From a virus, in the IMG/VR virus record IMGVR_UViG_3300020198_000018, positions 1 through 57,895 of that record: a stretch of DNA of 57,895 bases; one strand, written 5' to 3'. The translations under genes were made by a program, and so were the position numbers. Below are positions 11,465-51,042 of the stretch, piece after piece; the first letter of the stretch is position 1; every line of letters starts with the position of its first letter. The notes under the pieces were generated by a model. The model was not told the DNA's origin, ran no database searches, and worked only from the letters and a program-made list of their open reading frames with translations.

Positions 11465-11706
11465 TAAAAATCAAGTTCATTATAGTCATCGTCATCTTCG
11501 GATGATTCGTCCTCGGTTTCGAGATAATATGTAATTGCTCGATCGATAATCGAATCATTACCGGTTGCACTTTGGAAAATCCTATCAGGGACCCCGAAGT
11601 CAGCTAACATATCGATATATCGTTCTGCAACGATATCTAATTGTTTTTTTTCGATATAATCTGCAAACAGCATCCACATTTCATTAATTTGTGTCTCATT
11701 CAACAT
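11464..11706 (-). CDS. Small acidic protein following UvsX
   Basis: 80 residues from ATG 11706 (MLNETQINEMWMLFADYIEKK), chosen because AGAGGAAG lies about 9 nt upstream; the longer frame to 11760 would lie inside uvsX. It is helical with a very acidic tail (ETEDESSEDDDDYNELDF). Small proteins of this form follow uvsX in several marine T4-like phages as far as I recall; function unknown. It overlaps the uvsX end by 11 bp, so it is translationally coupled. The acidic tail recalls gp32-type protein-interaction tails, but that is speculation. Confidence 0.6.
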   Translation of the reverse strand: MLNETQINEMWMLFADYIEKKQLDIVAERYIDMLADFGVPDRIFQSATGNDSIIDRAITYYLETEDESSEDDDDYNELDF

Positions 11707-12937
11707 TTTCGACAACTTCCTCTTTTGTAGTAGTATTTGCTGGTTTATTAACAAAATCATCCATTAGTTTATCTAAACATGAATTTGTATTTTTGACCCA
11801 TTCTTTTCTGTATTGTTTAATTGTAGTACCATCCAAATAATCTGCGCGTAGACTATTACCATCTTTGGTCAACATGTGTTGAGATTCAAAAAATTCAACC
11901 ATCCCACTATATGGATTCATTCCAGTCTCATATGGTATTTTAATTTCAACTTGTTCGAATGGTTTGTTGTACCTGGTTTTCATAATCTTACATTGTGCTC
12001 TAATACCGGTAACATCACTAATTTTATTTCCGTCATCATCTTCTTTAAGTTTCAATTTACGCATTGCTACGACAATTGAACTAGCATAGATAAATCCTTG
12101 GCCGCCGGAAATTTTATCATCTGGATCGAACATATCTTGACTGGCATAACTATGATTAGTTGCTACCAAACCAACGTTCTGCGAACCGAACATATTTACA
12201 CAATTTCTAACCAATGCCGTCAATGCTTTCGGTTTTCTACCCATGTCACCTTTGAGGTCACCATCGTCAAATTGTTTAATGTCAGTTGGGGTTAATAACA
12301 TACCCAAGCTATCCACTACGAATAAAACTTTTGGTTTTTCATCTTCTGGTATGGTTTTATATTCTTTCATAAACTCACTAATTGTTTTTGCAACATCGTC
12401 GATCATTGCCATATTAAGTTTAAGAAGTTTATCTTCGTTAGTATCGACACCAACGCCCTTGAGCCATTTTTCATCCAATGCGTTTTCAGAATCAATAAGC
12501 ACTACATAAATGCCTTGTTCTTGTGCGTTTCTAATCACATTGCCAGCACAAATAAAACTTTTGCCACTATTGTGACTAGAAATTCCATCCCCCCAATACC
12601 GATGATTTGGATGTAGCACTTCAAAATCATAGCATTCCTGCGGGTCAACTGGTGCTTTGAAAATAACAGCTTCTTCACCCGACTCAGTTAAAATAACATC
12701 CCCCGGGGATAATTCATCTGCTAACACCCACCCTAAGTCAGGGGTTTGAATCATGTGGTTAGTTGCACAAATAGTATTATAGGTATCAGTACCAATATTC
12801 ACCATTGGCAATTTACCTTTGTCGAACCACCCACCGATTGATTGATACCCATCCGGTGTATCAATTTCAATATTATATTTGCCACTGTCGTATAATTCTT
12901 TTAATTCACCAACGGTGACTTTCTTTTCAACAAACAT
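11696..12937 (-). CDS. uvsX: UvsX recombinase, C-terminal piece with split-intein C-part
   Basis: 413 residues: intein C-part 1-123 (starts MFVEKKVTVGELKELYDSG, ends GISSHN), then UvsX from the second half of the P-loop (SGKSFICAGNVI). RecA-family motifs follow: VVLIDSENALDE, the Walker B strand KVLFVVDSLGMLL, and the DNA-binding loops around VGLVATNHSYASQDMF and ISGGQGFIYASSIVV. Joined to the N-piece the protein would be 355 residues (T4 UvsX 391). UvsX carries out strand exchange in recombination-dependent replication. The start has a good Shine-Dalgarno (AGGAG, 6 nt spacing). The first 11 bp overlap the end of the endonuclease gene. Confidence 0.92.
   Translation of the reverse strand: MFVEKKVTVGELKELYDSGKYNIEIDTPDGYQSIGGWFDKGKLPMVNIGTDTYNTICATNHMIQTPDLGWVLADELSPGDVILTESGEEAVIFKAPVDPQECYDFEVLHPNHRYWGDGISSHNSGKSFICAGNVIRNAQEQGIYVVLIDSENALDEKWLKGVGVDTNEDKLLKLNMAMIDDVAKTISEFMKEYKTIPEDEKPKVLFVVDSLGMLLTPTDIKQFDDGDLKGDMGRKPKALTALVRNCVNMFGSQNVGLVATNHSYASQDMFDPDDKISGGQGFIYASSIVVAMRKLKLKEDDDGNKISDVTGIRAQCKIMKTRYNKPFEQVEIKIPYETGMNPYSGMVEFFESQHMLTKDGNSLRADYLDGTTIKQYRKEWVKNTNSCLDKLMDDFVNKPANTTTKEEVVENVE
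12569..12937 (-). other. Split intein C-part, UvsX P-loop (123 residues)
   Basis: Runs from the new ATG to SHN before +1 Ser of SGKS. It includes the helix segment VTVGELKELYDSG that in the TerL inteins lies on the N-part, the DTPDGY turn, block B as CATNH (Ala in the usual Thr position) and block F YDFEVLHPNHRY. Confidence 0.88.
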
Positions 12938-14075
12938 ATTTTTCTCCTATTTTGGATAATAAATTTTTTACTGTTTCTACGGGATTTTTCCTATATTCAC
13001 TTTCCCACACTATTATTAAAGAAGAAACTAATGAATGTTGATTTATGATGTTAGTTCGCATTTCATCATATTGCCAAACATCATTAGATGTTTTTCCAAA
13101 ACATTCATAATCTTCTTCAAAAAGAATGGGATTTCTATGAAAAAAATCACCATAAAACTCTATTACTGTACCAGATTCTTTGTGATAAAAATCAACTCTG
13201 AATCCACTAATATTATATTCATAATTTTTAAATTGATAATAGCAAGTACCAAGCAGATGTTGTTCCAAACGGTTAAATAAATCTTGCGAAATTTTAGAAA
13301 ATGATTGATTTTTTTTATTTTTCATTTTCATGCAATGATCTTGATATCTGGCGGTTGCATCTTCTAATGATAGTCCCCTAGCCATATTTCCTTCAATACT
13401 AGGTCCTTTCTTTTTATTGATCATCACCTTGTCATCTGCTGTTTTAGCATCTAATGTGGCTAACCATTTTTTTAACCGAATATCATACAATCGTTTTCCT
13501 TCTTCTTCGCCATATTTTTTTACATAGTAAGCAATACCGTTAGTTGAATTCACCCGTTTCACTTCATTTCTAGCATCTTCTTCGGAATATCCCTTTCTCA
13601 TCCAAAAAACTAATGAACGAGAAGAATATATATTGGTTCCTCGCAATAGTACAACTGCTTTTGCGGCGTTGTTTTGTTGAATTTCTTTAACTTTTTCAAC
13701 TGCTTCTGCTTCTGAAAATCCTAAGCTAGTCCAATATGAATTTTTATTTTTAAAATGCTTTGTTTTACGAATACTATGATCTTGCTTAATAGCAACATAT
13801 GACCGGCCATATCTCAAAAAATAAGAATAATCACTTCCATTAAGTATTTTTTTCAATCGGTTGATTCTACCTTTATAATTATTTAAATCATATAAAATGA
13901 ATTTAGAAATAGTTTCAACCCAATCATATAAATTAGATACGGGAATTTCATCAAACAGTTTGTCAAGTCGTACTATATGATACTCGGTTATTGTTTTATC
14001 TTTTAATACTTGTTTTGCTATTTTATAATTTAAAAATTTTGTTACCTGTTTACTCATCATACTGATAAATCCCAT
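12927..14075 (-). CDS. Vsr/EDxHD-type homing endonuclease inside the split uvsX gene
   Basis: A free-standing nuclease between the two intein halves. The catalytic domain is C-terminal: an IEFYGDFFHRNP motif (Glu, Asp and His of the Vsr-like EDxHD fold) followed by the strand LIIVWESEYRKNP. The middle has repeated helix units typical of DNA-binding modules (GFSEAEAVEKVKEI, GYSEEDARNEVKRV, GLSLEDATARYQDH, each about 30 residues). The frame is open to 14120, but a GATAAATA late box at 14084-14091 makes ATG 14075 more likely. Such enzymes cut intein-free alleles so that the fractured locus spreads; target specificity here is inferred from position. Confidence 0.82.
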   Translation of the reverse strand: MGFISMMSKQVTKFLNYKIAKQVLKDKTITEYHIVRLDKLFDEIPVSNLYDWVETISKFILYDLNNYKGRINRLKKILNGSDYSYFLRYGRSYVAIKQDHSIRKTKHFKNKNSYWTSLGFSEAEAVEKVKEIQQNNAAKAVVLLRGTNIYSSRSLVFWMRKGYSEEDARNEVKRVNSTNGIAYYVKKYGEEEGKRLYDIRLKKWLATLDAKTADDKVMINKKKGPSIEGNMARGLSLEDATARYQDHCMKMKNKKNQSFSKISQDLFNRLEQHLLGTCYYQFKNYEYNISGFRVDFYHKESGTVIEFYGDFFHRNPILFEEDYECFGKTSNDVWQYDEMRTNIINQHSLVSSLIIVWESEYRKNPVETVKNLLSKIGEKYVC

Positions 14076-14083
14076 TAAAAGAA

Positions 14084-14091
14084 TATTTATC
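14084..14091 (-). promoter_or_regulatory. Late-type box GATAAATA for the uvsX homing endonuclease
   Basis: Minus-strand GATAAATA, 8 nt before ATG 14075. It would let the endonuclease be expressed late, separately from the early uvsX transcript. Confidence 0.45.
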
Positions 14092-14123
14092 AGTTGCCGG
14101 AGAGACGGGTTCAAATACAAAAA

Positions 14124-14366
14124 TTATTTTTCACTATATCGTATTTTTACTACAGCACTTTCTGGAAGGCACCCGCTTTCACCAGCAAATACGGTAACTT
14201 TCCCAAGTGGAATCCCATGTTTAAAATTACCGCTAATTTTGTAATTAAGTGCATAATTACCAGTTGAAACCCAATCCGTAGGATCATTAAATCCCACACC
14301 CAATCCCTCAATACTTTTTGTGAGGGTTTTTCTAAATTTTGTTAAATCAAAGGCTTTAGTTGCCAT
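14124..14366 (-). CDS. uvsX: UvsX recombinase, N-terminal piece with very short split-intein N-part
   Basis: 80 residues: UvsX 1-65 ending KVTVFAGESG (first half of the P-loop GESGSGKS), then intein CLPESAVVKIRYSEK and stop. The ATG has a GGAG Shine-Dalgarno 8 nt upstream, just beyond the gp32 terminator. Without trans-splicing to the 11696..12937 product it has no ATPase site. The intein part is only 15 residues, missing the helix that the TerL intein N-parts retain. Confidence 0.9.
   Translation of the reverse strand: MATKAFDLTKFRKTLTKSIEGLGVGFNDPTDWVSTGNYALNYKISGNFKHGIPLGKVTVFAGESGCLPESAVVKIRYSEK
14127..14171 (-). other. Split intein N-part, UvsX P-loop (15 residues)
   Basis: CLPESAVVKIRYSEK directly after FAGESG. 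Only block A and one strand remain. This is near the lower limit I know for natural split-intein N-fragments. Confidence 0.85.
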
Positions 14367-18483: not shown

Positions 18484-18491
18484 TATTTATC
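18484..18491 (-). promoter_or_regulatory. Late-type box GATAAATA, 4 nt before the 16341..18479 start
   Basis: Minus-strand GATAAATA-CAAG-ATG, overlapping the last codons of the TerL C-piece. Predicts a near-leaderless late transcript. Confidence 0.5.
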
Positions 18492-19587
18492 AGAATCCAG
18501 AAGAAATAAATATAGGAAGTGGGGCTTCCCATTCGTCATGCATAATATCAATACACAATGAGTCAAATACATTAGGGTCCCATTCAGATAATACTACACT
18601 CATTCTAATAATTAATAATACAGCAGATACTAGATCATCATGATGCCCTTGTTTTGCTTTGAAACTAACACCCGATGCAATAAATCCTTTCAATTCACTT
18701 ATTAACATCCGACTATTAATCACCATTTTATCTTCTTCAATAAGAAATTTTAATCGAGCACACGACGAAATCTTATTACCAAATGTTGTGTTAAATCCTT
18801 TTCTAAATTTTTTAACATGACCTTTACGCAATGGCTCACTTAAAAATAAACCAGGAAATGATTCTTCCCCTAAATTTTCAATTGTAACTAACGCGCTATC
18901 ACCAATAGTATTATTTTCAACAGACCAATATATACTATTCCCACCCCCAATTTCATCTTGAATATATCGCAATACATCACGCAATATTTTACATTGTCCA
19001 TGTATCGGTGTTAAATTATGTTGCCATTCTGCTATCTGGGTGAAACTAGGCAATTCAAACACCTGAATACCGCCATAATCCCCGCCAGTCCCCAAACTTG
19101 GGTCCAATGCAATTAAATACATATGTCCCGCAGATGGTTTTTTATACCACCTGACTTGTCCCATCTTAAATATTGGCTCTATGCCAAGCATTTCAGTTAG
19201 TTTAATACTGTTAATTAATGTTTCATCATATACCAAAAATTCGCAGTTCGATGATAAAATATTATTAGCATAATACCTATGCCCATTTTCAACTTCAATT
19301 AAATCATAAACCGGTTCCTTATGCCCAGTCGGTTCTTTCTGTAACAATCGTAAATTTCCAGTTGATGTTATTACAGAATCACCAATGTTTAATTCATCAG
19401 CAGTTTTTGTCGTGGTTTCTGATACATAAAGTTTATGGTTGGGTGTGCATTCTACCAATGCATTATTTTCAAAAGTTAATCTAACAGTATGTGTTATATT
19501 CATCATACTAACCCCGGCAAAATCTTGAAATCCAGACGGTGTTAATACTTTATATCCCAATGTGTTTGTTTTAAATATGGGGTTCAT
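18490..19587 (-). CDS. 17: Terminase large subunit, piece 4 (nuclease domain) with split-intein C-part
   Basis: 365 residues. Intein C-part 1-114 (MNPIFKTNTLGYKVLTPSGF to NNILSSN), then TerL from CEFLVYDETLI. The RNase H-like nuclease domain shows its acidic sites: LIALDPSLGTGGDYGG, WSVENNTIGDSALV and QGHHDDLVSAVLL. Its ATG immediately follows the stop of piece 3 (TAAATG), with no endonuclease gene in this break. Two noncanonical points: the penultimate intein residue is Ser, and block B is CTPNH. It cannot package DNA until spliced to piece 3. Confidence 0.92.
   Translation of the reverse strand: MNPIFKTNTLGYKVLTPSGFQDFAGVSMMNITHTVRLTFENNALVECTPNHKLYVSETTTKTADELNIGDSVITSTGNLRLLQKEPTGHKEPVYDLIEVENGHRYYANNILSSNCEFLVYDETLINSIKLTEMLGIEPIFKMGQVRWYKKPSAGHMYLIALDPSLGTGGDYGGIQVFELPSFTQIAEWQHNLTPIHGQCKILRDVLRYIQDEIGGGNSIYWSVENNTIGDSALVTIENLGEESFPGLFLSEPLRKGHVKKFRKGFNTTFGNKISSCARLKFLIEEDKMVINSRMLISELKGFIASGVSFKAKQGHHDDLVSAVLLIIRMSVVLSEWDPNVFDSLCIDIMHDEWEAPLPIFISSGF
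19246..19587 (-). other. Split intein C-part 3 of TerL
   Basis: 114 residues ending NNILSSN before +1 Cys. Contains LTPSGF turn, TPNH block B and YDLIEVENGHRYY block F. Partner is the N-part 19591..19686. Confidence 0.87.
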
Positions 19588-20328
19588 TTAATACCCCTGC
19601 AGAGAGTCATACAACTCCCCAATTGTGATTTGAAAAATATTGCCGTCTGTATCTTGTACTGTTATACCATTATGATGCGCCAGACAATTAAATTCGCGAC
19701 GGAACCTTTCAACCCCTATCCGACCGATTTCTTCTTTTTTCCAGTTTTCATCACGGTCTGGGTGTTCCCACCAGTCTGATTTAAAACTATAGAATCCATT
19801 TCTTCCTATACCATCCGTACGTTCATTTCCATATTCATCGAATATATCTTTACTTTCTTTCCATATAAGAGCAAATTGGTCTTCATCTGAATTGGGGGTT
19901 GATGTGATAATAGCGCGACCACCCGTCGCTAATGTCGGGGAGATAGATGTCCAAAATTCATTTGCAATATTTGGCTGCACATAGCTGAACTCATCGCAAT
20001 TTTTTGTTATAATACAAGAGTTTACAATATATTGATGGTGTGGCTGGGCCACTTCTACAATATCATACACATCAGTTTCTTTAAACATCGTTATTGATAT
20101 TATCTGCAAACTTCCGTTTGTAGTGTCGACATAATCACCAATTGCTAAATTTGATAATTTAATTTTATTATTATTGTTAAAAAAGTAATGCCCGGGGGTA
20201 GCATTAATTACACCCCCATTTTCTAATGTTAATTTATAAGTAACTTTATTTTTAAGTTGTGTTATACCCCGGAAATCTCTCCATCCATCTGGGGTTAGAA
20301 TTTCATATTCAGTGTTTTCAACAAACAT
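19588..20328 (-). CDS. 17: Terminase large subunit, piece 3 (Walker B to motif III) between two half-inteins
   Basis: 246 residues: intein C-part (1-110, MFVENTEYEILTPDGW to CIITKN), extein 111-214 starting at the Walker B acidic pair (CDEFSYVQPN; the preceding SLLY is on piece 2) and including the coupling motif ITSTPN, ending RFRREFN, then intein N-part from Cys215 (CLAHHNGITVQDTDG to SLQGY). Good Shine-Dalgarno (GAGG, 7-8 nt before ATG). Its 5' end overlaps the endonuclease gene by 34 bp. This polypeptide must splice at both ends. Confidence 0.92.
   Translation of the reverse strand: MFVENTEYEILTPDGWRDFRGITQLKNKVTYKLTLENGGVINATPGHYFFNNNNKIKLSNLAIGDYVDTTNGSLQIISITMFKETDVYDIVEVAQPHHQYIVNSCIITKNCDEFSYVQPNIANEFWTSISPTLATGGRAIITSTPNSDEDQFALIWKESKDIFDEYGNERTDGIGRNGFYSFKSDWWEHPDRDENWKKEEIGRIGVERFRREFNCLAHHNGITVQDTDGNIFQITIGELYDSLQGY
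19591..19686 (-). other. Split intein N-part 3 of TerL (32 residues)
   Basis: CLAHHNGITVQDTDG then IFQITIGELYDSLQGY and stop. It keeps the ITIGELYDSL helix segment, so the split lies after the helix. Confidence 0.87.
19999..20328 (-). other. Split intein C-part 2 of TerL
   Basis: 110 residues from MFVENTEYEILTPDGW to IITKN before +1 Cys. Block B is ATPGH (TPGH). The penultimate residue is Lys instead of His, which should slow Asn cyclisation unless another residue compensates. Confidence 0.86.
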
Positions 20329-21230
20329 AGTATATCCTCAACATCCTGTTTATATGTGTTTTCCCACACATAATAAGTCACAAATCCGCGATGCTTATGT
20401 AGTATTCGTGCTTTGTTATAATCATATTCTAATACTTCGGCGGCAGTTTTTGTTTTACCGCGTGGTGGTTTCCATGTGTCCCACAAATTATCAGGCATAG
20501 CTGGATCAGCATGCCAAGCATTTGATTGATACTCAATGGTTGCATTAATACTGGGAATTGTTAAATCCCAAAAATAATGATTACCAGTATCCGGGTCTTT
20601 AAAGCAATATTCTTGTTTATCAAAATAAAAAATTACGTTATGCTCAGACAACAGATTTATGATAGGTGTTAAAGCTTTAATTGACGCCTTACTTGCACCA
20701 CCCGTCCCAGATATGTTGTTTTTCATAAGGGTTGCTTTTTGTTTTACATGGGCATTTTGTTCAATAGTTAATCCATTTGGCAATACCGTAGTTAATCGAT
20801 AATTGGCTTGTCTACGGTACCCATTTCTTCCCAATTCATCAACCTTATTCATATGGGTGTTTCTGGTTTTTTCACCTTTACGTTTATACCCAGATTTTCC
20901 GGTATGGTCTACTTGTCGTAATGTAGCACGGGCTTTTATTTGTGCGGTTTCATATTTTGACATTCCTGTTGCTTCATCGAGCACTGCTAATCCATTTTTT
21001 ATATTGGTGAGAAAGGCAGGGGACATTCCACGAACTCCTGGATACAAGTTGTCATATTCATCAACAGTCATTTCAAGAATTTTTATAATGTATGTTGTTT
21101 TTATCACCAGCAATCGTTCATTACTAACAGGGCAAGTAATGAAATCAACATTATCTACCAATCCAGGTAGATATAAATGTGCATTTCGCCGTCTATTTCG
21201 CTTAATAAATGTTTCTAATTTAGTTTTCAT
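20295..21230 (-). CDS. Vsr-like homing endonuclease in the second TerL break
   Basis: 311 residues. C-terminal nuclease-like fold: HYFWDLTIPSINATIEYQS followed by NAWHADP, matching the Vsr/EDxHD E..(D)..WH arrangement, though an Asn or Ser replaces the second acidic residue seen in the other two nucleases. Final strand FVTYYVWENTYKQDVEDIL resembles Vsr ends. The N-terminal part has basic repeat-like units (HTGKSGYKRKGEKTRNTH, DELGRNGYRRQANYR) probably for DNA contact. It has a perfect late promoter, TATAAATA, 5 nt before ATG. It overlaps piece 3 by 34 bp and starts 37 bp after piece 2 ends. Activity is inferred; the changed acidic position could mean loss of activity. Confidence 0.78.
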   Translation of the reverse strand: MKTKLETFIKRNRRRNAHLYLPGLVDNVDFITCPVSNERLLVIKTTYIIKILEMTVDEYDNLYPGVRGMSPAFLTNIKNGLAVLDEATGMSKYETAQIKARATLRQVDHTGKSGYKRKGEKTRNTHMNKVDELGRNGYRRQANYRLTTVLPNGLTIEQNAHVKQKATLMKNNISGTGGASKASIKALTPIINLLSEHNVIFYFDKQEYCFKDPDTGNHYFWDLTIPSINATIEYQSNAWHADPAMPDNLWDTWKPPRGKTKTAAEVLEYDYNKARILHKHRGFVTYYVWENTYKQDVEDILCLLKTLNMKF

Positions 21231-21235
21231 AAAAA

Positions 21236-21243
21236 TATTTATA
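21236..21243 (-). promoter_or_regulatory. Perfect T4 late promoter box TATAAATA
   Basis: Minus-strand TATAAATA-N5-ATG (21230). Exact T4 consensus, and the best single example in the window of the box lying 5 nt before a start codon. Confidence 0.65.
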
Positions 21244-21267
21244 CTAAAGTAAATTCATCGTGCGACA

Positions 21268-22017
21268 TTATGAAATTACTCGCAATGGATTTAGTAGTTT
21301 AATATAAAGATCTTTTAAGCATATATCTTCTTCCACAAGGGTGGCTTTATTTCTAATTTTGACAAATGATGTTTCGCCATCTAAACAATATAATAATGAT
21401 ATTGAAAGACCACGCCCTGTTGTACCGGTAGTTGTTTGACTTATGATGCGTGAGCCGTTATCAAATTCCATGCTACCTTTATTATAACTGACTACCCCAG
21501 CACGTAGGAAATCAGGACATAATTCATAACCATATCTAATCCGTTGCATGATTTCTTGTGCGCCGGTAAATTTATGTGCTGCGACCAAGATAGTTTGGTC
21601 TGGGTGGAACATTGCATACCAAAGTAAATATGCTGATGCGCAGGTGGTATTATGGCTTAGTATATCGTTTGAGTAAAACCTATGATTACTCGAATCAACT
21701 TCAATATCATACATATTATCAGTATCCAATGTATTAATTACCGAAATAACTTTAGCCGTGCCGTGTTTTGTAATAATCTCATCGTTTAACTGCAAATCTT
21801 TTACAAATACTTCGGTATAATCTTTACGAAATACTATGTGGTCATCTGCACATTCTAAAAATTGTCCATTATCGAGTTCTAATCTCCAAATTTCATATTC
21901 TATAGTCTGTTTTACATCAACCATAGATTCCCACCCAGTATCAGTTTCTATTAACCACTCAGATGCATCGTATATTTGAGTAAATTTTCGATTTATTGTT
22001 TCAGAAAGTTTAAGCAT
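21268..22017 (-). CDS. 17: Terminase large subunit, piece 2 (ATPase middle) between two half-inteins
   Basis: 249 residues: intein C-part 1-123 (MLKLSETINRKFTQIYD to DILSHN), extein 124-210 from TTCASAYLLWYAM (the Thr completing P-loop RQSGK/T) through FDNGSRIISQTTTGTTGRG to SISLLY, then intein N-part from Cys211 (CLDGETSFVKIRNKATL to PLRVIS). Only 87 terminase residues, so nearly two-thirds of this polypeptide is removed. ATG 22017 lies inside the last codons of the endonuclease gene (25-bp overlap). Needs two trans-splicing reactions. Confidence 0.92.
   Translation of the reverse strand: MLKLSETINRKFTQIYDASEWLIETDTGWESMVDVKQTIEYEIWRLELDNGQFLECADDHIVFRKDYTEVFVKDLQLNDEIITKHGTAKVISVINTLDTDNMYDIEVDSSNHRFYSNDILSHNTTCASAYLLWYAMFHPDQTILVAAHKFTGAQEIMQRIRYGYELCPDFLRAGVVSYNKGSMEFDNGSRIISQTTTGTTGRGLSISLLYCLDGETSFVKIRNKATLVEEDICLKDLYIKLLNPLRVIS
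21271..21387 (-). other. Split intein N-part 2 of TerL (39 residues)
   Basis: Starts at Cys after SLLY (CLDGETSFVKIRNKATL) and contains ICLKDLYIKLL, the helix segment before the split. Sits exactly before the Walker B DE pair of TerL. Confidence 0.87.
21649..22017 (-). other. Split intein C-part 1 of TerL (123 residues)
   Basis: MLKLSETINRKFTQIYD to DILSHN before +1 Thr. Block B is CADDH (Ala in the Thr position, as in the UvsX and UvsW P-loop inteins) and block F YDIEVDSSNHRFY. Confidence 0.88.
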
Positions 22018-23168
22018 TGTTGTATTGCCTGTTGTTTATTGTTTTTGTATTCGTATTCATTAACATGAATAATGTCATATCCGGCCTGTTTAATGATATT
22101 GTCTCTTAATAGTTCTCGTGCAGGGTTGGTTTTTGCAGGAGAATGCCAATAGTCTCCATCAAATTCTATAACCTTTTTAAGATTAGTATCGATAAAATCT
22201 GGTCTAACATACGTGTTAGCAAGCTCTAAAGTATATTCTTTATTTTTATATGATGTCATATCTTCTCGCAAAAATGTTGCATAATACACATTTGTACAAT
22301 CAATATGTGTAGCTATTTCAGCAAATAATTCTTGTGATATTTTTGAATAGCTAGCTTTTTTAAATGTTTTACTCCATTTTTTTATTTTTTCTTTATGTTT
22401 ATTAATACCATCAATTTCGCCATACTTTTCTATAAACCAATTTATATCTCTAGTTTGTGATTTTGTATATAACTCTTTTGCTACTACTTCATCACCATCA
22501 GCAATATTTAACCAATACGATAATTTAAAAATGCTATTGTCATAATTTTTCATAAATTTAGAATGATTTGTTTTATGTTCAGCATGTCGCTCTTTATCAT
22601 ACCCATGAATAAAATTTTTACTCCATGCCGAATATTTTCCATTATGGTGATACGCAGGGTTATTTTTACCCTGACGTATTTTACAATGCTTAATAGGTTT
22701 TAATTTATCTACATTATATTTCAATTTATATTCGGCAGATGTAACATCATGGATCATAATATGAGTACCTAAATCACCTGTCTTAGCTCCGCATATTTCA
22801 CATACTTGATAATCATATCCTTCTATTTTATCTTTAAACTTCTTTTCGCCTGCAGCTATGCATTTTTTTAATTCATACTCATGTTTATCAATTTTTGAGT
22901 CTAATCTTACTGTTTGATAACATTTATTAGAACAATAATCTTTTGTATAATCGCCATGAATCTTTCCACAAGATTTACACTTGCAATCTGTTTGATTAAC
23001 AATAGCATATATTCTTTTTGAAAAAGAAACATTAAGAGGAAATGTATTAGTTATTTCATAAACTTCATTACGTATCCCCTTTGCAATAACATTATGTTGA
23101 ATGCTGTACTTGCTACTTGATGCTATTATTTCGCTGCATTTCAAAAAAATCGCCGATTGGTATATCAT
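21993..23168 (-). CDS. Vsr/EDxHD homing endonuclease in the first TerL break
   Basis: About 391 residues. Start ATG 23168 (MIYQSAIFLKCSE) is preferred over GTG 23177 because AGGTG lies about 6 nt upstream. N-terminal zinc sites: DCKCKSCGKIHG with DYCSNKCY, and VCEICGAKTG with HIMIH. A NUMOD3-like DNA-binding motif follows (GKNNPAYHHNGKYSAWS). The C-terminal nuclease has VIEFDGDYWHSP (Glu, Asp, His) and the strand YDIIHVNEYEYK. It overlaps the first TerL piece by about 55 bp and the second by 25 bp. This is the classical fractured-gene layout. Confidence 0.85.
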   Translation of the reverse strand: MIYQSAIFLKCSEIIASSSKYSIQHNVIAKGIRNEVYEITNTFPLNVSFSKRIYAIVNQTDCKCKSCGKIHGDYTKDYCSNKCYQTVRLDSKIDKHEYELKKCIAAGEKKFKDKIEGYDYQVCEICGAKTGDLGTHIMIHDVTSAEYKLKYNVDKLKPIKHCKIRQGKNNPAYHHNGKYSAWSKNFIHGYDKERHAEHKTNHSKFMKNYDNSIFKLSYWLNIADGDEVVAKELYTKSQTRDINWFIEKYGEIDGINKHKEKIKKWSKTFKKASYSKISQELFAEIATHIDCTNVYYATFLREDMTSYKNKEYTLELANTYVRPDFIDTNLKKVIEFDGDYWHSPAKTNPARELLRDNIIKQAGYDIIHVNEYEYKNNKQQAIQQCLNFLKQ

Positions 23169-23481
23169 ATTCTTCACCTGTGTCTTTATGTTTGATACGT
23201 ATATTTATCTCTTTCGTCAAACACTTCCCACTCTGTCTGGGCAGCATATTAATATTAAATCTATAGGAATGATAGCTATTTAAAAGATTTAGTTGATATT
23301 CGAACGGGTCAAATAATAATTTTCCCTTAACTGGGTGTTGAATGTGAAAAAAGTTTTTAGCAAAATATAAGTATCCAAATTCTGGATCCATACAAGAAAT
23401 CATGTCTTGTATTTGCTGTTCAGTCCACTGTTGTTTTATGTGTGCTCTCTTAGTTAGAGCATTATCTACGTTTCTAGCCAT
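23113..23481 (-). CDS. 17: Terminase large subunit, piece 1 with split-intein N-part
   Basis: 122 residues. Residues 1-86 are the TerL N-terminus (EFGYLYFAKNFFHIQHP, FEYQLNLLNSY) ending at P-loop MLPRQSGK. From Cys87 the sequence is intein (CLTKEINIRIKHKDTG to FEMQRNNSIK). The mature TerL from four pieces would be 86+87+104+251 = 528 residues, close to related gp17 proteins (T4 gp17 610). TerL is the packaging motor: ATPase plus headful nuclease. A terminator lies immediately upstream and a TGTAAATA box 5 nt before ATG, so the gene is a late transcription unit with almost no leader. Confidence 0.92.
   Translation of the reverse strand: MARNVDNALTKRAHIKQQWTEQQIQDMISCMDPEFGYLYFAKNFFHIQHPVKGKLLFDPFEYQLNLLNSYHSYRFNINMLPRQSGKCLTKEINIRIKHKDTGEEYDIPIGDFFEMQRNNSIK
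23116..23223 (-). other. Split intein N-part 1 of TerL (36 residues)
   Basis: From Cys after RQSGK to the stop: CLTKEINIRIKHKDTG, then IPIGDFFEMQ, the helix segment. The endonuclease start and promoter lie within this coding stretch. Confidence 0.87.
23202..23209 (-). promoter_or_regulatory. Late-type box GATAAATA inside TerL piece 1
   Basis: Minus-strand GATAAATATACG, 33 nt before the endonuclease ATG 23168, embedded in the intein N-part codons. The extended match GATAAATATAC also precedes gp13 (33430-33437). Confidence 0.45.
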
Positions 23482-23542: not shown

Positions 23543-24499
23543 CTAGTAAGAGTAAGGACCATCATACTTCCAATAGCGTTTATAGTCATCATCATAATTG
23601 TCTAAATCATTTTTTTCGATCTGCCAATAGCGTTTATAGTCATCATCATAATTGTCTAAATCATTTTTTTCGATCCACGCCCAAATCGGGTTTTTCAAAT
23701 ATTCTTTAAATTTAGTCACATCAACCATTTCATTTTTTTCTTCGTCATAAGATTCAACTTTATGAAGTTCTAAATTACCATGTTCGTTAAATTCATATGT
23801 TACACTTAAAAATCCAGACGGTACAACTTGTTCTAAGTTTGATGGTAGATCAATTTCCACTTCGTCGACAGTTCTTGTTATACCATATGCTTCAACGTCA
23901 TCGTCATCGCCATACGGTGTTCTACCTCCCCATGTAGCTTCGTCTCCATAACCAGGTAGATTGCGGGTTTCATTCAATGTCTTGGTTTTTATGGTTTCAT
24001 AAAGTTCTGATAAATGTTTTATCAAGCTCGCATCTACATTCCAAGGATTTTCTCCACCGTTTGCTTTTAATGCCCCTTTACCTTTACTAGATAAATCGTC
24101 ACCTGTTGCGATAACGGCGTCGATTGCATATTTCATTGGATCTATTTTATCGGCGGTTGAATTAGCAAAACTATCGTCAATGATTTCATCGGATGGATCC
24201 ATGTCAATACTCGATGGTTCTAACTCATGCATGGTGCTAGTATCAATAATCATTGGTTCTGAATCAGTACGTGGCTCACCAACAATAATTTTTGCATCTC
24301 CTTGACCAGTTGTTTCAATATTACGTAAAATGTCCATTAAATCACGGATACCACCAGAACCTTGACCATTAAAAGATATATTCATATTTACCGAATCAGG
24401 TTGTGTATGTTCTGCTGGGCCAGTATTGTCGCACGAACATTCATTAACTACCCCGGAATCGATATTAGATATTTTTTTATATAAATTATTAAAATTCAT
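23543..24499 (-). CDS. Acidic phage protein with recent internal duplication, unknown
   Basis: 318 residues, strongly acidic, no recognised domain. It has low-complexity stretches (MHELEPSSIDMDPSDEIIDD), a LIKHLSELYETIKTKTLNE helix, and a C-terminal tandem duplication of 18 residues (IEKNDLDNYDDDYKRYW twice). ATG 24499 has AGGA about 8 nt upstream. Placed between the head-like gene 24569..25117 and TerL, it ends at a strong terminator, so it closes the gp16-side operon. A head or scaffold-like role is possible but not shown. Confidence 0.65.
   Translation of the reverse strand: MNFNNLYKKISNIDSGVVNECSCDNTGPAEHTQPDSVNMNISFNGQGSGGIRDLMDILRNIETTGQGDAKIIVGEPRTDSEPMIIDTSTMHELEPSSIDMDPSDEIIDDSFANSTADKIDPMKYAIDAVIATGDDLSSKGKGALKANGGENPWNVDASLIKHLSELYETIKTKTLNETRNLPGYGDEATWGGRTPYGDDDDVEAYGITRTVDEVEIDLPSNLEQVVPSGFLSVTYEFNEHGNLELHKVESYDEEKNEMVDVTKFKEYLKNPIWAWIEKNDLDNYDDDYKRYWQIEKNDLDNYDDDYKRYWKYDGPYSY
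23570..23677 (-). repeat. 54-bp tandem direct repeat, two copies, in frame
   Basis: Unit beginning CCAATAGCGTTTATAGTC on plus at 23570 and again at 23624, almost identical for about 52 bp. It encodes 18 residues twice and looks like a recent slippage or recombination duplication. Confidence 0.9.
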
Positions 24500-40581: not shown

Positions 40582-41538
40582 ATGGATACCACGAAACGAA
40601 GCAGCGCTTTCTTTATTAATGGTGGCAGCGGTAGAGTAATATCATCAATTCCCGCTTTAGAATTATATCATAAAGAAAATCCAGACGACGATTTTATAAT
40701 CGTCTGCGAAAGCGGAATGGATGTCTTTAGAGGACATCCAGTTCTACATCCACGCGCATTCGAGCCTGATCATAAAGGTCTTTTCGAATCACATATCAAA
40801 AATAGAAATTGTGTTACTCCAGAACCATATAGAGTTTGGGAATACTATAATCAACTATGTAGCATTGCTCAAGCATTTGATATAGAGATAAACAAAAAGG
40901 GCTTAAGAGATGTTCAAAAGCCAAACTTATATCTTTCAGGATTTGAGACAAACGGTGCATTCATAACTGTGCGCGAAATGAAAGAAAAACTCAACGTTGA
41001 AAAAATCATAGTATTTCAGCCGTTCGGTAGATCGACGATGACTCCGAATGGATTCCCGTACGATAACTCTGGAAGAAGCTTTGACACGTTCGATGCAGCA
41101 GACATTATAAAAAGACTTCAGAAGAAAAAAATAGGCGTTATACTTATGTCGGAATTTCCAGTTCCGTTCAATGATTTAGGTTGTGAACAACCAGTGCCAA
41201 AGCCAGATAATGCTTCTATCAGACAATGGATGGGATTTATTTCTGCGGCTGATCATTTCTTAGGGTGCGATTCAGTTGGCCAGCATATAGCCTACGCGTT
41301 AGATAAACCTTCAACAGTCGTGTTAGGATCGACGTTTGCGATTAATGTTTCTTATCCTAATAAAAAGAATGTTAACATTATCGACGTAGATAAAGATACA
41401 AGAAGATATTCTGCTATTCGTCTTGCTGTGGATGATGAAGTAGATAGAGTAAACGATGGTTGTATGAAAATCAATAAGAACGATAAAATCATTAATGATA
41501 TTGTAAAATCAGTTTGTAATTCAATTGGAGTTAAGTAA
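40582..41538 (+). CDS. Glycosyltransferase family 9-like, copy B
   Basis: 318 residues, clearly paralogous to 39150..40175: FFINGGSGRVISSIPALELYHK, IVFQPFGRS, SGRSFDTFDAADIIKRL and SAADHFLGCDSVGQHIAYALDKPSTVVLGSTF. The divergence at DNA level is large, and codon choice differs (more GAC, GTC, ATC and AGA), suggesting acquisition of the second cassette from another phage rather than recent duplication. GGAG 6 nt before ATG. Its TAA overlaps the next ATG (TAATG). Confidence 0.7.
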   Translation: MDTTKRSSAFFINGGSGRVISSIPALELYHKENPDDDFIIVCESGMDVFRGHPVLHPRAFEPDHKGLFESHIKNRNCVTPEPYRVWEYYNQLCSIAQAFDIEINKKGLRDVQKPNLYLSGFETNGAFITVREMKEKLNVEKIIVFQPFGRSTMTPNGFPYDNSGRSFDTFDAADIIKRLQKKKIGVILMSEFPVPFNDLGCEQPVPKPDNASIRQWMGFISAADHFLGCDSVGQHIAYALDKPSTVVLGSTFAINVSYPNKKNVNIIDVDKDTRRYSAIRLAVDDEVDRVNDGCMKINKNDKIINDIVKSVCNSIGVK

Positions 41539-43322
41539 TGAGTAATAGTGGGTATATATTAGGAATTTCGCGAGGTCATAATGCTGGTGTATGCTTGTTA
41601 AAAGACGGTAAAATCGTATTTGCTATTGAAGAAGAACGCCTATCTAGACATAAGTATGATGGCGGCCCATATGCAGCCATGATGAAGGTAAAAGAATACA
41701 CTGATAAAGTAGACTATATCTTCGTGTCTCACACACAACCTATATCTGGTGCTGGTTCAGTAGATTATACTGGAGACAATGTATACACTGGTCTTGCAAG
41801 AAAACTTGGCTTAATTGAGCGTAAGAATATAGATCTAATAAATCATCCACAAGTAATTGACTTATCTTTTCAGCATCATAAAATTCATGCGGCTTGTGCG
41901 TTCTATCGCTCTGGCTGGAAAGACGCTGTCGCTTTAGTAGTCGATGGCGCTGGTTCTGCAACTAGAATTTCAGAATACGATTATATGTGGGAAGTAGAAT
42001 CTATATTTGATTGTGGTTATCCCAGCAATTTTAAAACATTATATAAGCATTCTGCTTGTTCATCAATGTTATTCAATAATCATGATTTTAATAGCGATTC
42101 GAAATACTTAGGTGAAGAAGGAACTCATGAATCTTTAATTTCCGGAAATGCAGGAATTGTAAAGCTATATGAAGCAGTCACAGAGTATTGCGGCTTTTCT
42201 GGAATAGAAGCTGGTAAAACTATGGGTCTATTCCCATACGGTAAACCAAATACAAACATTCCATCATTGTTTTGTGAAGATAGCAAGTTCGAAATAAAAC
42301 TTACTAATAAAAACTTGGTCACGCCAAGATATCCCGGAACAGCTGTTATCAATGCATCTCAATATACAGAACTTGATTCAGTTCCAAATGAGGGAGAAGA
42401 TCTTACTTTAATGCAAAATCGTCGTGATCTTGCGTATGCTCTTCAAACCGGAACACAAGAAAAAGTTTTACAGCTTATTCTTAAAGCCGTAGAATCATCT
42501 GGAAAGAAAAAAGTAGTTCTATCAGGTGGATATGCTCTTAACTGTGTAGCCAATTATTATTTTCTTGATACTCTTCGCGAAAAGGATATTGAATTATACG
42601 TTGAGCCAATCTCAAACGACGGTGGCACTGCAATTGGTGTAGCTTTATTGGGTTATCATGAAGTAACTAAATCTGAAGATGTGCATCCACGAGAAATTTA
42701 TCTTGGTCCTAAATATGACTATACAGTCGAACAAGTTCATGAACTTGCAGAAAAGTATGGCGCAGCAATTCAAGATTGCAATGATTCTGATGTAGTAGAA
42801 TTAATGACAAATAAAAACATCGTTGCATGTTTTCAAGGTCGTTCTGAAAATGGGCCGAGAGCTTTAGGCAATCGATCACTTATGTTTGATCCTACTTTTA
42901 AAGATGGTAAAGACTTTGTAAATCTTATAAAGCGTCGTGAATACTTTAGACCATTTGCTGGTTCTATATTAGCAGAAGATGTTCATGAATGGTTTGATTT
43001 ACGCGGCATGGAAGATTCTCCGCATATGATGTATGCAGTAAACTGTCAACCTGGATTTGAAGAAAAAATTCCTTCTATCATTCACGTAGATGACACATGT
43101 CGCATTCAGACTGTGACTGAAGAACAAAATCCACTTTACTATAAAATCATTAAAGCGTTTAAAGAAAAAACTGGTGTTCCTATTATTTTTAACACCTCGT
43201 TCAATCTTGGCGGAGAACCATTAGTAGAAACTTTAGAAGATGCGCTTTGGACATTGCAACAAAGCGATATCGAATATTTGTATCTTCCAGAGCATAGCAA
43301 ATTATTGACAATCTGCAACTAA
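41538..43322 (+). CDS. Carbamoyltransferase, NodU/CmcH (TobZ) family, intact
   Basis: 594 residues, the normal family length. The N-terminal Kae1-like domain has GISRGHNAGVCLL, FAIEEERLSRHKYDGG, the metal motif HHKIHAACAFYRSG and VVDGAGSA. The C-terminal domain has VVLSGGYALNCVAN, CFQGRSENGPRALGNRS and KRREYFRPFAGSILAEDVHEWFD. These enzymes use carbamoyl phosphate and ATP to carbamoylate a hydroxyl on a sugar, antibiotic or, in some phages, a modified cytosine. Next to a GT9 gene the likely substrate is a glycan; DNA hydroxymethylcytosine is an alternative, but no hydroxymethylase lies in this window. Confidence 0.88.
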   Translation: MSNSGYILGISRGHNAGVCLLKDGKIVFAIEEERLSRHKYDGGPYAAMMKVKEYTDKVDYIFVSHTQPISGAGSVDYTGDNVYTGLARKLGLIERKNIDLINHPQVIDLSFQHHKIHAACAFYRSGWKDAVALVVDGAGSATRISEYDYMWEVESIFDCGYPSNFKTLYKHSACSSMLFNNHDFNSDSKYLGEEGTHESLISGNAGIVKLYEAVTEYCGFSGIEAGKTMGLFPYGKPNTNIPSLFCEDSKFEIKLTNKNLVTPRYPGTAVINASQYTELDSVPNEGEDLTLMQNRRDLAYALQTGTQEKVLQLILKAVESSGKKKVVLSGGYALNCVANYYFLDTLREKDIELYVEPISNDGGTAIGVALLGYHEVTKSEDVHPREIYLGPKYDYTVEQVHELAEKYGAAIQDCNDSDVVELMTNKNIVACFQGRSENGPRALGNRSLMFDPTFKDGKDFVNLIKRREYFRPFAGSILAEDVHEWFDLRGMEDSPHMMYAVNCQPGFEEKIPSIIHVDDTCRIQTVTEEQNPLYYKIIKAFKEKTGVPIIFNTSFNLGGEPLVETLEDALWTLQQSDIEYLYLPEHSKLLTICN

Positions 43323-49587: not shown

Positions 49588-51042
49588 TTATTTTGTTACA
49601 TTTTTTATTTCAATTAATTTACCATATTCAGGTAAATACAAATATTCAATATCACTTTGATGTAGCGTCCATAATGCATCTTCTAGCGTTTCAACCAACG
49701 GTTCGCCGCCCAAATTAAATGAAGTATTGAACACAATTGGCGTTCCTGTTTGTGATTTAAATTCTTTGATCAATTTATAATACAATGGATTATCTTCTTT
49801 TGAGACTGTTTGAATACGACATGTTCCGTCAACATGAATAATCGATGGGATTCGTTCTTCTACTCCAGGTTGACAATTTACAGCATACATCATATGCGGG
49901 GTATTTTCCATTCCTCTCAAATCAAACCATTCATGAACATCTTCTTCAAGGATACTCCCAGCAAATGGTCTAAAGTATTCTCTACGTTTCACTGCATTAA
50001 CATAATCTTTTCCGTCTTCAAATCTAGGATCAAATAAGATCGACCGATTTCCCAATGCTCTCGGGCCATTTTCAGATCTACCTTGGAACAACGCAACAAT
50101 ATTTTTACTGGTTAATAATTTTACAACATCAGAATCAGATGCTTCTTTTACATTCGCATCATATTGTTCTGATAAATTAATGATGGTATCGTCATCATAA
50201 GTATAATTAGGACCTAGGTAAATATTGCTTGGGTGCTTGGTATCCGATTTAGTTAACATATGATAGAACAGTAATGCAACACCAATCGCAGTACCGCCAT
50301 CATTAGAAACTGGTTCTACGTACAGGTTAATACCTTCCTCATTTAATTTGTTAAGGTAGTAATAGTTCGCAACGCAGTTCAGACCATACCCACCCGATAC
50401 AACAACATTCTTATTACCAGTTAGCGCAGACGCAGATAAAATAAGATTTAATACTTGGTCTTGCGTTTGTGTTTGACACGCATATGCTAAATCTCTGCGA
50501 TTTTGCAGTTGCGTAACATCGCCAATGCTAAAGTCAGTTGTCAATTCAGAATATAAATGTTCATCGACTATCGCACCATTTGGATATGTAGGTACAATTA
50601 CATTTCTATCACTGATTGGAAACTTTGTATTGCTTGTAAATAATTTTGGAATGTTATCGTTCTCCTTTCCATACGGAAATAGCCCCATTGTTTTACCGGC
50701 TTCGATACCTTGGAACCCACAGTATTCCGTAACCGCTTCGTACACTTTTACAATTCCTGCATGACCCGAAATAAGAACAGTGTGGGTACCTTCTTCACCA
50801 ATTTGGGAACTATCTTCCTTCGTGTTAAAATAAGTTGTTATGGGAGAACGACACCCAAAATGTTTATATACTGTTTTAATATTGTCTGGGTACGAGCATT
50901 CAAAAATAGATTCGACTTCCCATAGCTTCAATGGTTCATTCCGAAATGTAGCATCGTTTGAGGTCCCAGCACCATCGACAATTACTGCAGCGGCAGAATC
51001 AAATCCACTTCTATAAAACGCTGCTGCAGCATGAATTTTTAC
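49588..51042 (-). pseudogene. 3' fragment of a carbamoyltransferase (copy A), without start
   Basis: Open from the TAA of the upstream gene at 51052 and homologous to copy B from KIHAAAAFYRSGFDSAAAVI onward, through GYGLNCVANYYYLNKL, LFQGRSENGPRALGNRS and KRREYFRPFAGSILEEDVHE to the normal C-terminus. The only in-frame initiator is a weak TTG at 50931, which would give 447 residues without the metal-binding motif. The missing 5' part ends at the same codon position at 40515 on plus. Probably nonfunctional, although the C-terminal domain is undamaged, which suggests the break is recent. Confidence 0.82.

Follow-up and report, generated by a model that had tools for sequence, protein, structure and literature searches.

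A phage terminase large subunit in four chains, probably joined by three different split inteins

In IMGVR_UViG_3300020198_000018, an IMG/VR virus record that is a fragment of 57,895 nt (57.9 kb; analyzed at full length and called the window below), the T4 gp17-type large terminase subunit (TerL) is encoded as four open reading frames (ORFs) on the minus strand, between positions 18490 and 23481. Very probably, the four chains are joined into one motor by three different split-intein elements. A first-pass annotation of the window had described exactly this, four polypeptides and three different split inteins, and the description is supported by empty insertion sites in related phages, the homology, fold, and splice residues of the inteins, purifying selection, a second record of the locus, and the outcome of a search for RNA introns.

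In the proposed mechanism, three different split-intein elements would have invaded terL at three active-site positions, leaving a string of overlapping genes, in the order chain 1, nuclease, chain 2, nuclease, chain 3, and chain 4, from which four TerL chains would be made. Each intein N-part would pair only with its own C-part, excise, and ligate the two flanking exteins, so that three trans-splicing reactions, with chains 2 and 3 spliced at both ends, would yield a 528-residue gp17-type motor. A mis-paired middle chain would be cyclized, as in the constructs used for split-intein circular ligation of peptides and proteins (SICLOPPS), or would be skipped, and orthogonality of the three pairs should therefore be required. 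The free-standing endonucleases of breaks 1 and 2 would act as homing enzymes that copy the elements into empty terL alleles, and intein 3 would be a derivative lacking a nuclease gene and broken by one stop codon.

Organization of the fractured locus

All features of the locus are on the minus strand. Chain 1 (23481..23113, 122 aa) consists of extein 1 (23224..23481, 86 aa), which extends as far as the Walker A sequence RQSGK, and the N-part of intein 1 (23113..23223), 36 residues that begin with Cys1 and are followed by a stop codon. Chain 2 (22017..21268, 249 aa) opens with the 123-residue C-part of intein 1 (21649..22017), which ends in SHN, continues through the 87 residues of extein 2 (21388..21648; TTCAS to SLLY), and closes with the N-part of intein 2 (21268..21387; 39 residues from Cys1, plus stop). 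Chain 3 (20328..19588, 246 aa) is built in the same way from the C-part of intein 2 (19999..20328; 110 residues, ending in TKN), extein 3 (19687..19998; 104 residues, CDEF to RREFN), and the N-part of intein 3 (19588..19686; 32 residues from Cys1, plus a TAA stop). Chain 4 (19587..18490, 365 aa) carries the C-part of intein 3 (19246..19587; 114 residues, ending in SSN) and extein 4 (18490..19245; 251 residues plus stop), which begins CEFLV and contains the RNase H-like nuclease, matched by PF17289 above its cut-off. The segment ends and restarts, the chain layout, the N-parts with their stops, and the C-parts at new ATG codons given in the first-pass annotation were all reproduced, as were the coordinates, lengths, and junctions (RQSGK/TTCAS at site 1, SLLY/CDEFSY at site 2, and RREFN/CEFLV at site 3).

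The extein pieces (86+87+104+251) add up to 528 residues, earlier judged a normal length for gp17, and uninterrupted close relatives of the window TerL, which provide the exact empty sites, are 526-528 aa long. The joined exteins match T4 gp17 over residues 10-489 (E=2e-55). Because of this match, and because the intein halves match solved inteins, the joined TerL is far from what chance would produce. Site 1 splits the P-loop between its Lys and Thr, and site 2 immediately precedes the Asp-Glu of Walker B; the ATPase site is therefore divided among separate chains. This division speaks against non-covalent complementation, in which the four chains would assemble unligated or only some junctions would be spliced, a reading that is very unlikely even though it gains from the fact that splicing is inferred only and from the unusual splice residues of some intein families. 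Nor would complementation need the constrained intein C-parts described below.

Endonuclease genes had been reported in the first two breaks and none in the third, and the only such ORFs are indeed those at 21993-23177 and 20295-21230. The break-1 nuclease gene (21993..23177), which may start at a GTG at 23177 or an ATG at 23168, overlaps chain 1 at its end and chain 2 at its start. Its product appears to have a Vsr/MTES_1575-like C terminus, matches Pfam family PF18741 below the curated cut-off (E=9e-7), and has homologues at site 1 in three other sequences (L059, L162, and L087). The break-2 nuclease gene (20295..21230) overlaps the start of chain 3; site-2 homologues of its product occur in at least 10 other loci, and its sole family match is phrog_22677, a family without an assigned function. 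In the site-2 nucleases, those of the window and L119 have the same N-terminal domain as those of L003 (5555-6478) and L083 but an unrelated C-terminal domain. The shared N-terminal domain of about 140 residues is 55% identical between the window and L003, whereas BLAST detected no similarity between the C-terminal domains of the window protein and the L003/L083 proteins, a pattern that suggests exchange of the cutting (catalytic) domain. The HNH label attached to the L003/L083 nuclease comes from a motif read by eye only, with no Pfam match. A T4-late-promoter motif, TATAAATA, just upstream of the break-2 nuclease was dropped as a candidate, as the window holds nine such motifs against 12 expected in shuffled sequences.

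The slightest of the three is break 3, a single in-frame TAA followed immediately by an ATG, with AGGGG 6 nt upstream of that ATG and no endonuclease ORF; a purine-rich, ribosome-binding-like sequence precedes the starts of both chain 3 and chain 4. As the frame is the same on either side of this one stop codon, and as a contiguous site-2 intein exists in another TerL (L177), intein 3 might be effectively contiguous, with TAA read-through or a sequence error giving a fused chain 3+4 and hence three chains with two split inteins. This is highly improbable, however: a second record of the locus has the identical stop, the ATG that follows it has the Shine-Dalgarno-like AGGGG, the family of intein 3 has three further members (L119, L126, and L174) with a split at that position, and the break falls in a disordered loop of the structural model.

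The second record, IMG/VR 3300020197_000396 (L002, 12,435 bp), contains the entire terL locus with zero differences; the only change detected, a 4-bp repeat indel, lies elsewhere in the record. This identity argues against assembly error, to the extent that the two assemblies are independent. A near-identity DNA search across the phage collection gave no match. Readings of the inserts as RNA introns or as artefacts of assembly can be regarded as next to impossible. The terL gene of phage ICP1 does have an RNA-spliced intron with a neighboring homing endonuclease (PMC10448857), but no Rfam family matched at E≤1 in the 11.5-24 kb region of the window, and at the ends of the inserts the extein frames continue into intein halves; against artefacts stand also the identical record and the related fractures found in dozens of other contigs.

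Inteins, empty sites, and selection

Among inteins in the PDB, intein 1 matches gp41-1 (E=1.5e-7), and inteins 2 and 3 match the Cat intein (E=1.1e-6 and 1e-10, respectively). The Pfam family Intein_splicing (PF14890) matches all three C-parts, below its curated cut-off (E=1.5e-4, 2.6e-5, and 6e-6 for inteins 1, 2, and 3). Each of the three has Cys1 and a C-terminal Asn, with Thr, Cys, and Cys as the respective +1 residues; across the families found at each site, Cys1, the block B His, the C-terminal Asn or Gln, and the +1 Thr or Cys are conserved. Sequence identity between the TerL inteins is 27-38% for the C-parts and 19-31% for the N-parts.

Fold was assessed for intein 3 alone, with the TAA read as Gln. 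A model built from an alignment of C-fragments and contiguous relatives has a predicted local distance difference test score (pLDDT) of 90.1, the only segment below 50 being residues 32-34, at the stop codon; AlphaFold run on the single sequence gave a pLDDT of only 36, and an alignment that included N-fragments was misaligned. The top Foldseek matches of the model are all inteins, the best being VidaL (template modeling score 0.78). Homology, the modeled fold of intein 3, and the conserved splice residues support the assignment of the inserts as probable inteins.

In the first survey, 50 of the 82 distinct TerLs with complete exteins are uninterrupted and continuous through all three junctions, and nearly all of the empty alleles already carry the +1 residues required for splicing (Thr, Cys, and Cys). 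The three sites lie in well conserved stretches, ranking between the 84th and the 99th percentile (for three positions chosen at random, P=0.003).

Selection was estimated as the ratio of nonsynonymous to synonymous substitution rates (dN/dS) by the Nei-Gojobori method. Compared with L119, the window exteins give 0.04 overall and 0.066, 0.005, 0.029, and 0.047 for pieces 1-4, and compared with L004 and L015 they give 0.05-0.07; L004 and L015, whose TerLs are each in one unbroken frame, give 0.084 against each other. The intein C-parts appear constrained (0.16-0.26), and the N-parts more weakly so (0.5-0.7 where computable). All four extein pieces appear to be under strong purifying selection similar to that on uninterrupted TerLs, and, judged by this selection, the fractured terL is functional.

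Several observations count against joining of the four chains by split inteins. The dS values against the window are high (1.5-3), so that the ratios above are approximate. A penultimate His is found in intein 1 only, Lys and Ser taking its place in inteins 2 and 3, and the TxxH of block B in inteins 2 and 3 is AxxH, with Ala for Thr, in intein 1; these unusual residues are common to the respective site families. Splicing itself is an inference from sequence. Finally, because the record is only a fragment, an intact second terL could lie beyond its 57.9 kb.

This last point is what would favor a decayed terL, that is, a fractured pseudogene with an intact copy elsewhere in the genome. We give this explanation a very small chance, for the four pieces have dN/dS of at most 0.07, like uninterrupted TerLs, their frames are open, no second TerL was found within the window, and isolated phages such as SCTP-2, whose genomes are complete, have only the pieces.

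Recurrence in other phages

A wider survey of 394 sequences (classified automatically, biased by the choice of queries, and including several loci per contig) yielded three unrelated TerLs with three split inteins: that of the window, that of L083, and that of L251/L261, two contigs 99.97% identical over 3 kb. Two more (L119 and L126) combine an in-frame intein at site 1 with two split inteins, and 16 further TerLs have exactly two split inteins, all three sites being seen, for about 18 in total with L119 and L126. The earlier view that a protein assembled in this way is exceptional does not survive these counts, nor the existence of a cultured phage, SCTP-2, with a three-chain TerL.

That phage, Salicola phage SCTP-2 (MF360958; L189, L190, and L205), has a separate, unlinked locus for each of its three TerL chains, with both strands used (gp534 at 429 kb, minus; gp267 at 256 kb, plus; gp224 at 216 kb, minus), with splits at sites 1 and 2 and a further in-frame intein. 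Its database record names all three pieces "terminase large subunit" and makes no mention of trans-splicing. In Campylobacter phage PC14 (L195 and L206), the TerL halves are about 27 kb apart on opposite strands, and both an intein N-part and a C-part are present at the break. Two-chain TerLs also occur in Agrobacterium phage Atu_ph07 and in the Krischviruses JK32 and kaaroe. Because these five phages were isolated, a fractured TerL is compatible with viability.

Close pairs of alleles illustrate how the occupancy of a site may vary. L119, with an in-frame intein at site 1 and splits at sites 2 and 3, and L004, interrupted at site 1 only, have near-identical exteins (dN 0.009). L261, with three splits, and L262, in which site 2 is empty, are 95% identical over exteins 2-3; identity is 85% in the first 60 nt downstream of site 2 and 97% just upstream, an excess of differences such as co-conversion would give. 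The empty L262 allele has Leu where the occupied L261 allele has the +1 Cys. In the TerL tree, occupied and empty alleles are interleaved, and the states of the sites appear to change quickly. Some breaks have no nuclease or only a nuclease remnant (L125, L165, and L126). In L177, site 2 is occupied by an intein of 154 aa (814-1275) that is contiguous and belongs to the intein-2 family, the same element either unsplit or re-joined. Together, such breaks and this contiguous intein would fill in a series of decay.

At the Walker A site 1, an in-frame intein of about 327 aa with Ala as its first residue is found in L004-L007, L020-L024, L119, and L126, so that two apparently unrelated elements, this intein and split intein 1, use the site. 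As far as sequence comparison can tell, the related phages show mobile elements breaking an essential gene repeatedly, in a natural process that recurs. A bolder and rather doubtful proposal is that TerL in several chains has evolved repeatedly and is a stable state: three mutually orthogonal split inteins would build one essential motor, their failure to recognize one another would itself be selected, and the need for splicing would set the onset of DNA packaging.

Relation to known systems and other genes of the window

Fractured genes of this general kind were recognized before, as the first-pass annotation had noted for genes with a single break. Dassa and colleagues reportedly described in 2009 fractured phage enzyme genes in which split intein halves flank a free-standing, often Vsr-like, endonuclease gene, with one break per gene. 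Breaks 1 and 2 of the window share this arrangement, whereas break 3 has no endonuclease gene between its halves, and terL is broken three times.

Atypically split TerL inteins are likewise known: AceL-TerL, GOS-TerL, and the Cat consensus intein are naturally split in this manner, with N-parts of 25-37 aa (PMC11766414; PDB 6dsl). A short N-part, a long C-part, and TerL as the host gene are features of all three window inteins; inteins 2 and 3 are also homologous to Cat, the consensus of AceL-TerL and GOS-TerL, whereas intein 1 is nearer to gp41-1. Each of these known inteins has been studied as a single split intein, whereas the window has three together. Pseudomonas phage MIJ3 similarly combines a split PolB intein with an HNH endonuclease in a phage enzyme gene (PMC6892783), but with one break and in a DNA polymerase. 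SCTP-2 resembles the window in its several-chain TerL split at sites 1 and 2 and differs in its unlinked loci and in-frame intein. In the literature covered, which does not include the founding fractured-gene paper, no description was found of more than one split intein in one natural gene; priority is unproven. The new parts are the three split inteins in one gene, the middle chains predicted to splice at both ends, and the recurrence across phages.

If four chains are indeed joined by three natural split inteins, then orthogonal trans-splicing, until now pursued chiefly as an engineering goal, would occur in nature. The collection, with its three-split lineages, about 18 two-split TerLs, nuclease-free and contiguous relatives, and an unlinked three-locus case, constitutes an evolutionary series in which essential genes become broken and remain functional, and it supplies new sets of split inteins. 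For annotation it carries a warning, since a TerL that looks "missing" or partial in a phage contig may be present in full as separate pieces.

Elsewhere in the window, uvsX is also fractured (11696-14366, minus strand). Its N-chain (14124-14366) ends FAGESG/CLPESAVVKIRYSEK, the latter a 15-aa intein N-part; an endonuclease-like gene (12927-14120) lies in the break; and the C-chain (11696-12937) begins with an intein C-part ending SHN/SGKS, all on the minus strand. The uvsX intein is a close homologue of VidaL (PDB 6vgv; E=1.5e-49), the best fold match of intein 3, in a gene and element separate from the TerL locus. With three split inteins in terL and one in uvsX, the phage has at least four. 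Upstream of terL, an ORF at 23543-24499 (minus strand) ends in a tandem exact repeat of 17 residues, IEKNDLDNYDDDYKRYW twice. Two Nol-like carbamoyltransferase genes are found on opposite strands, at 41538-43322 (plus) and 49588-50931 (minus).

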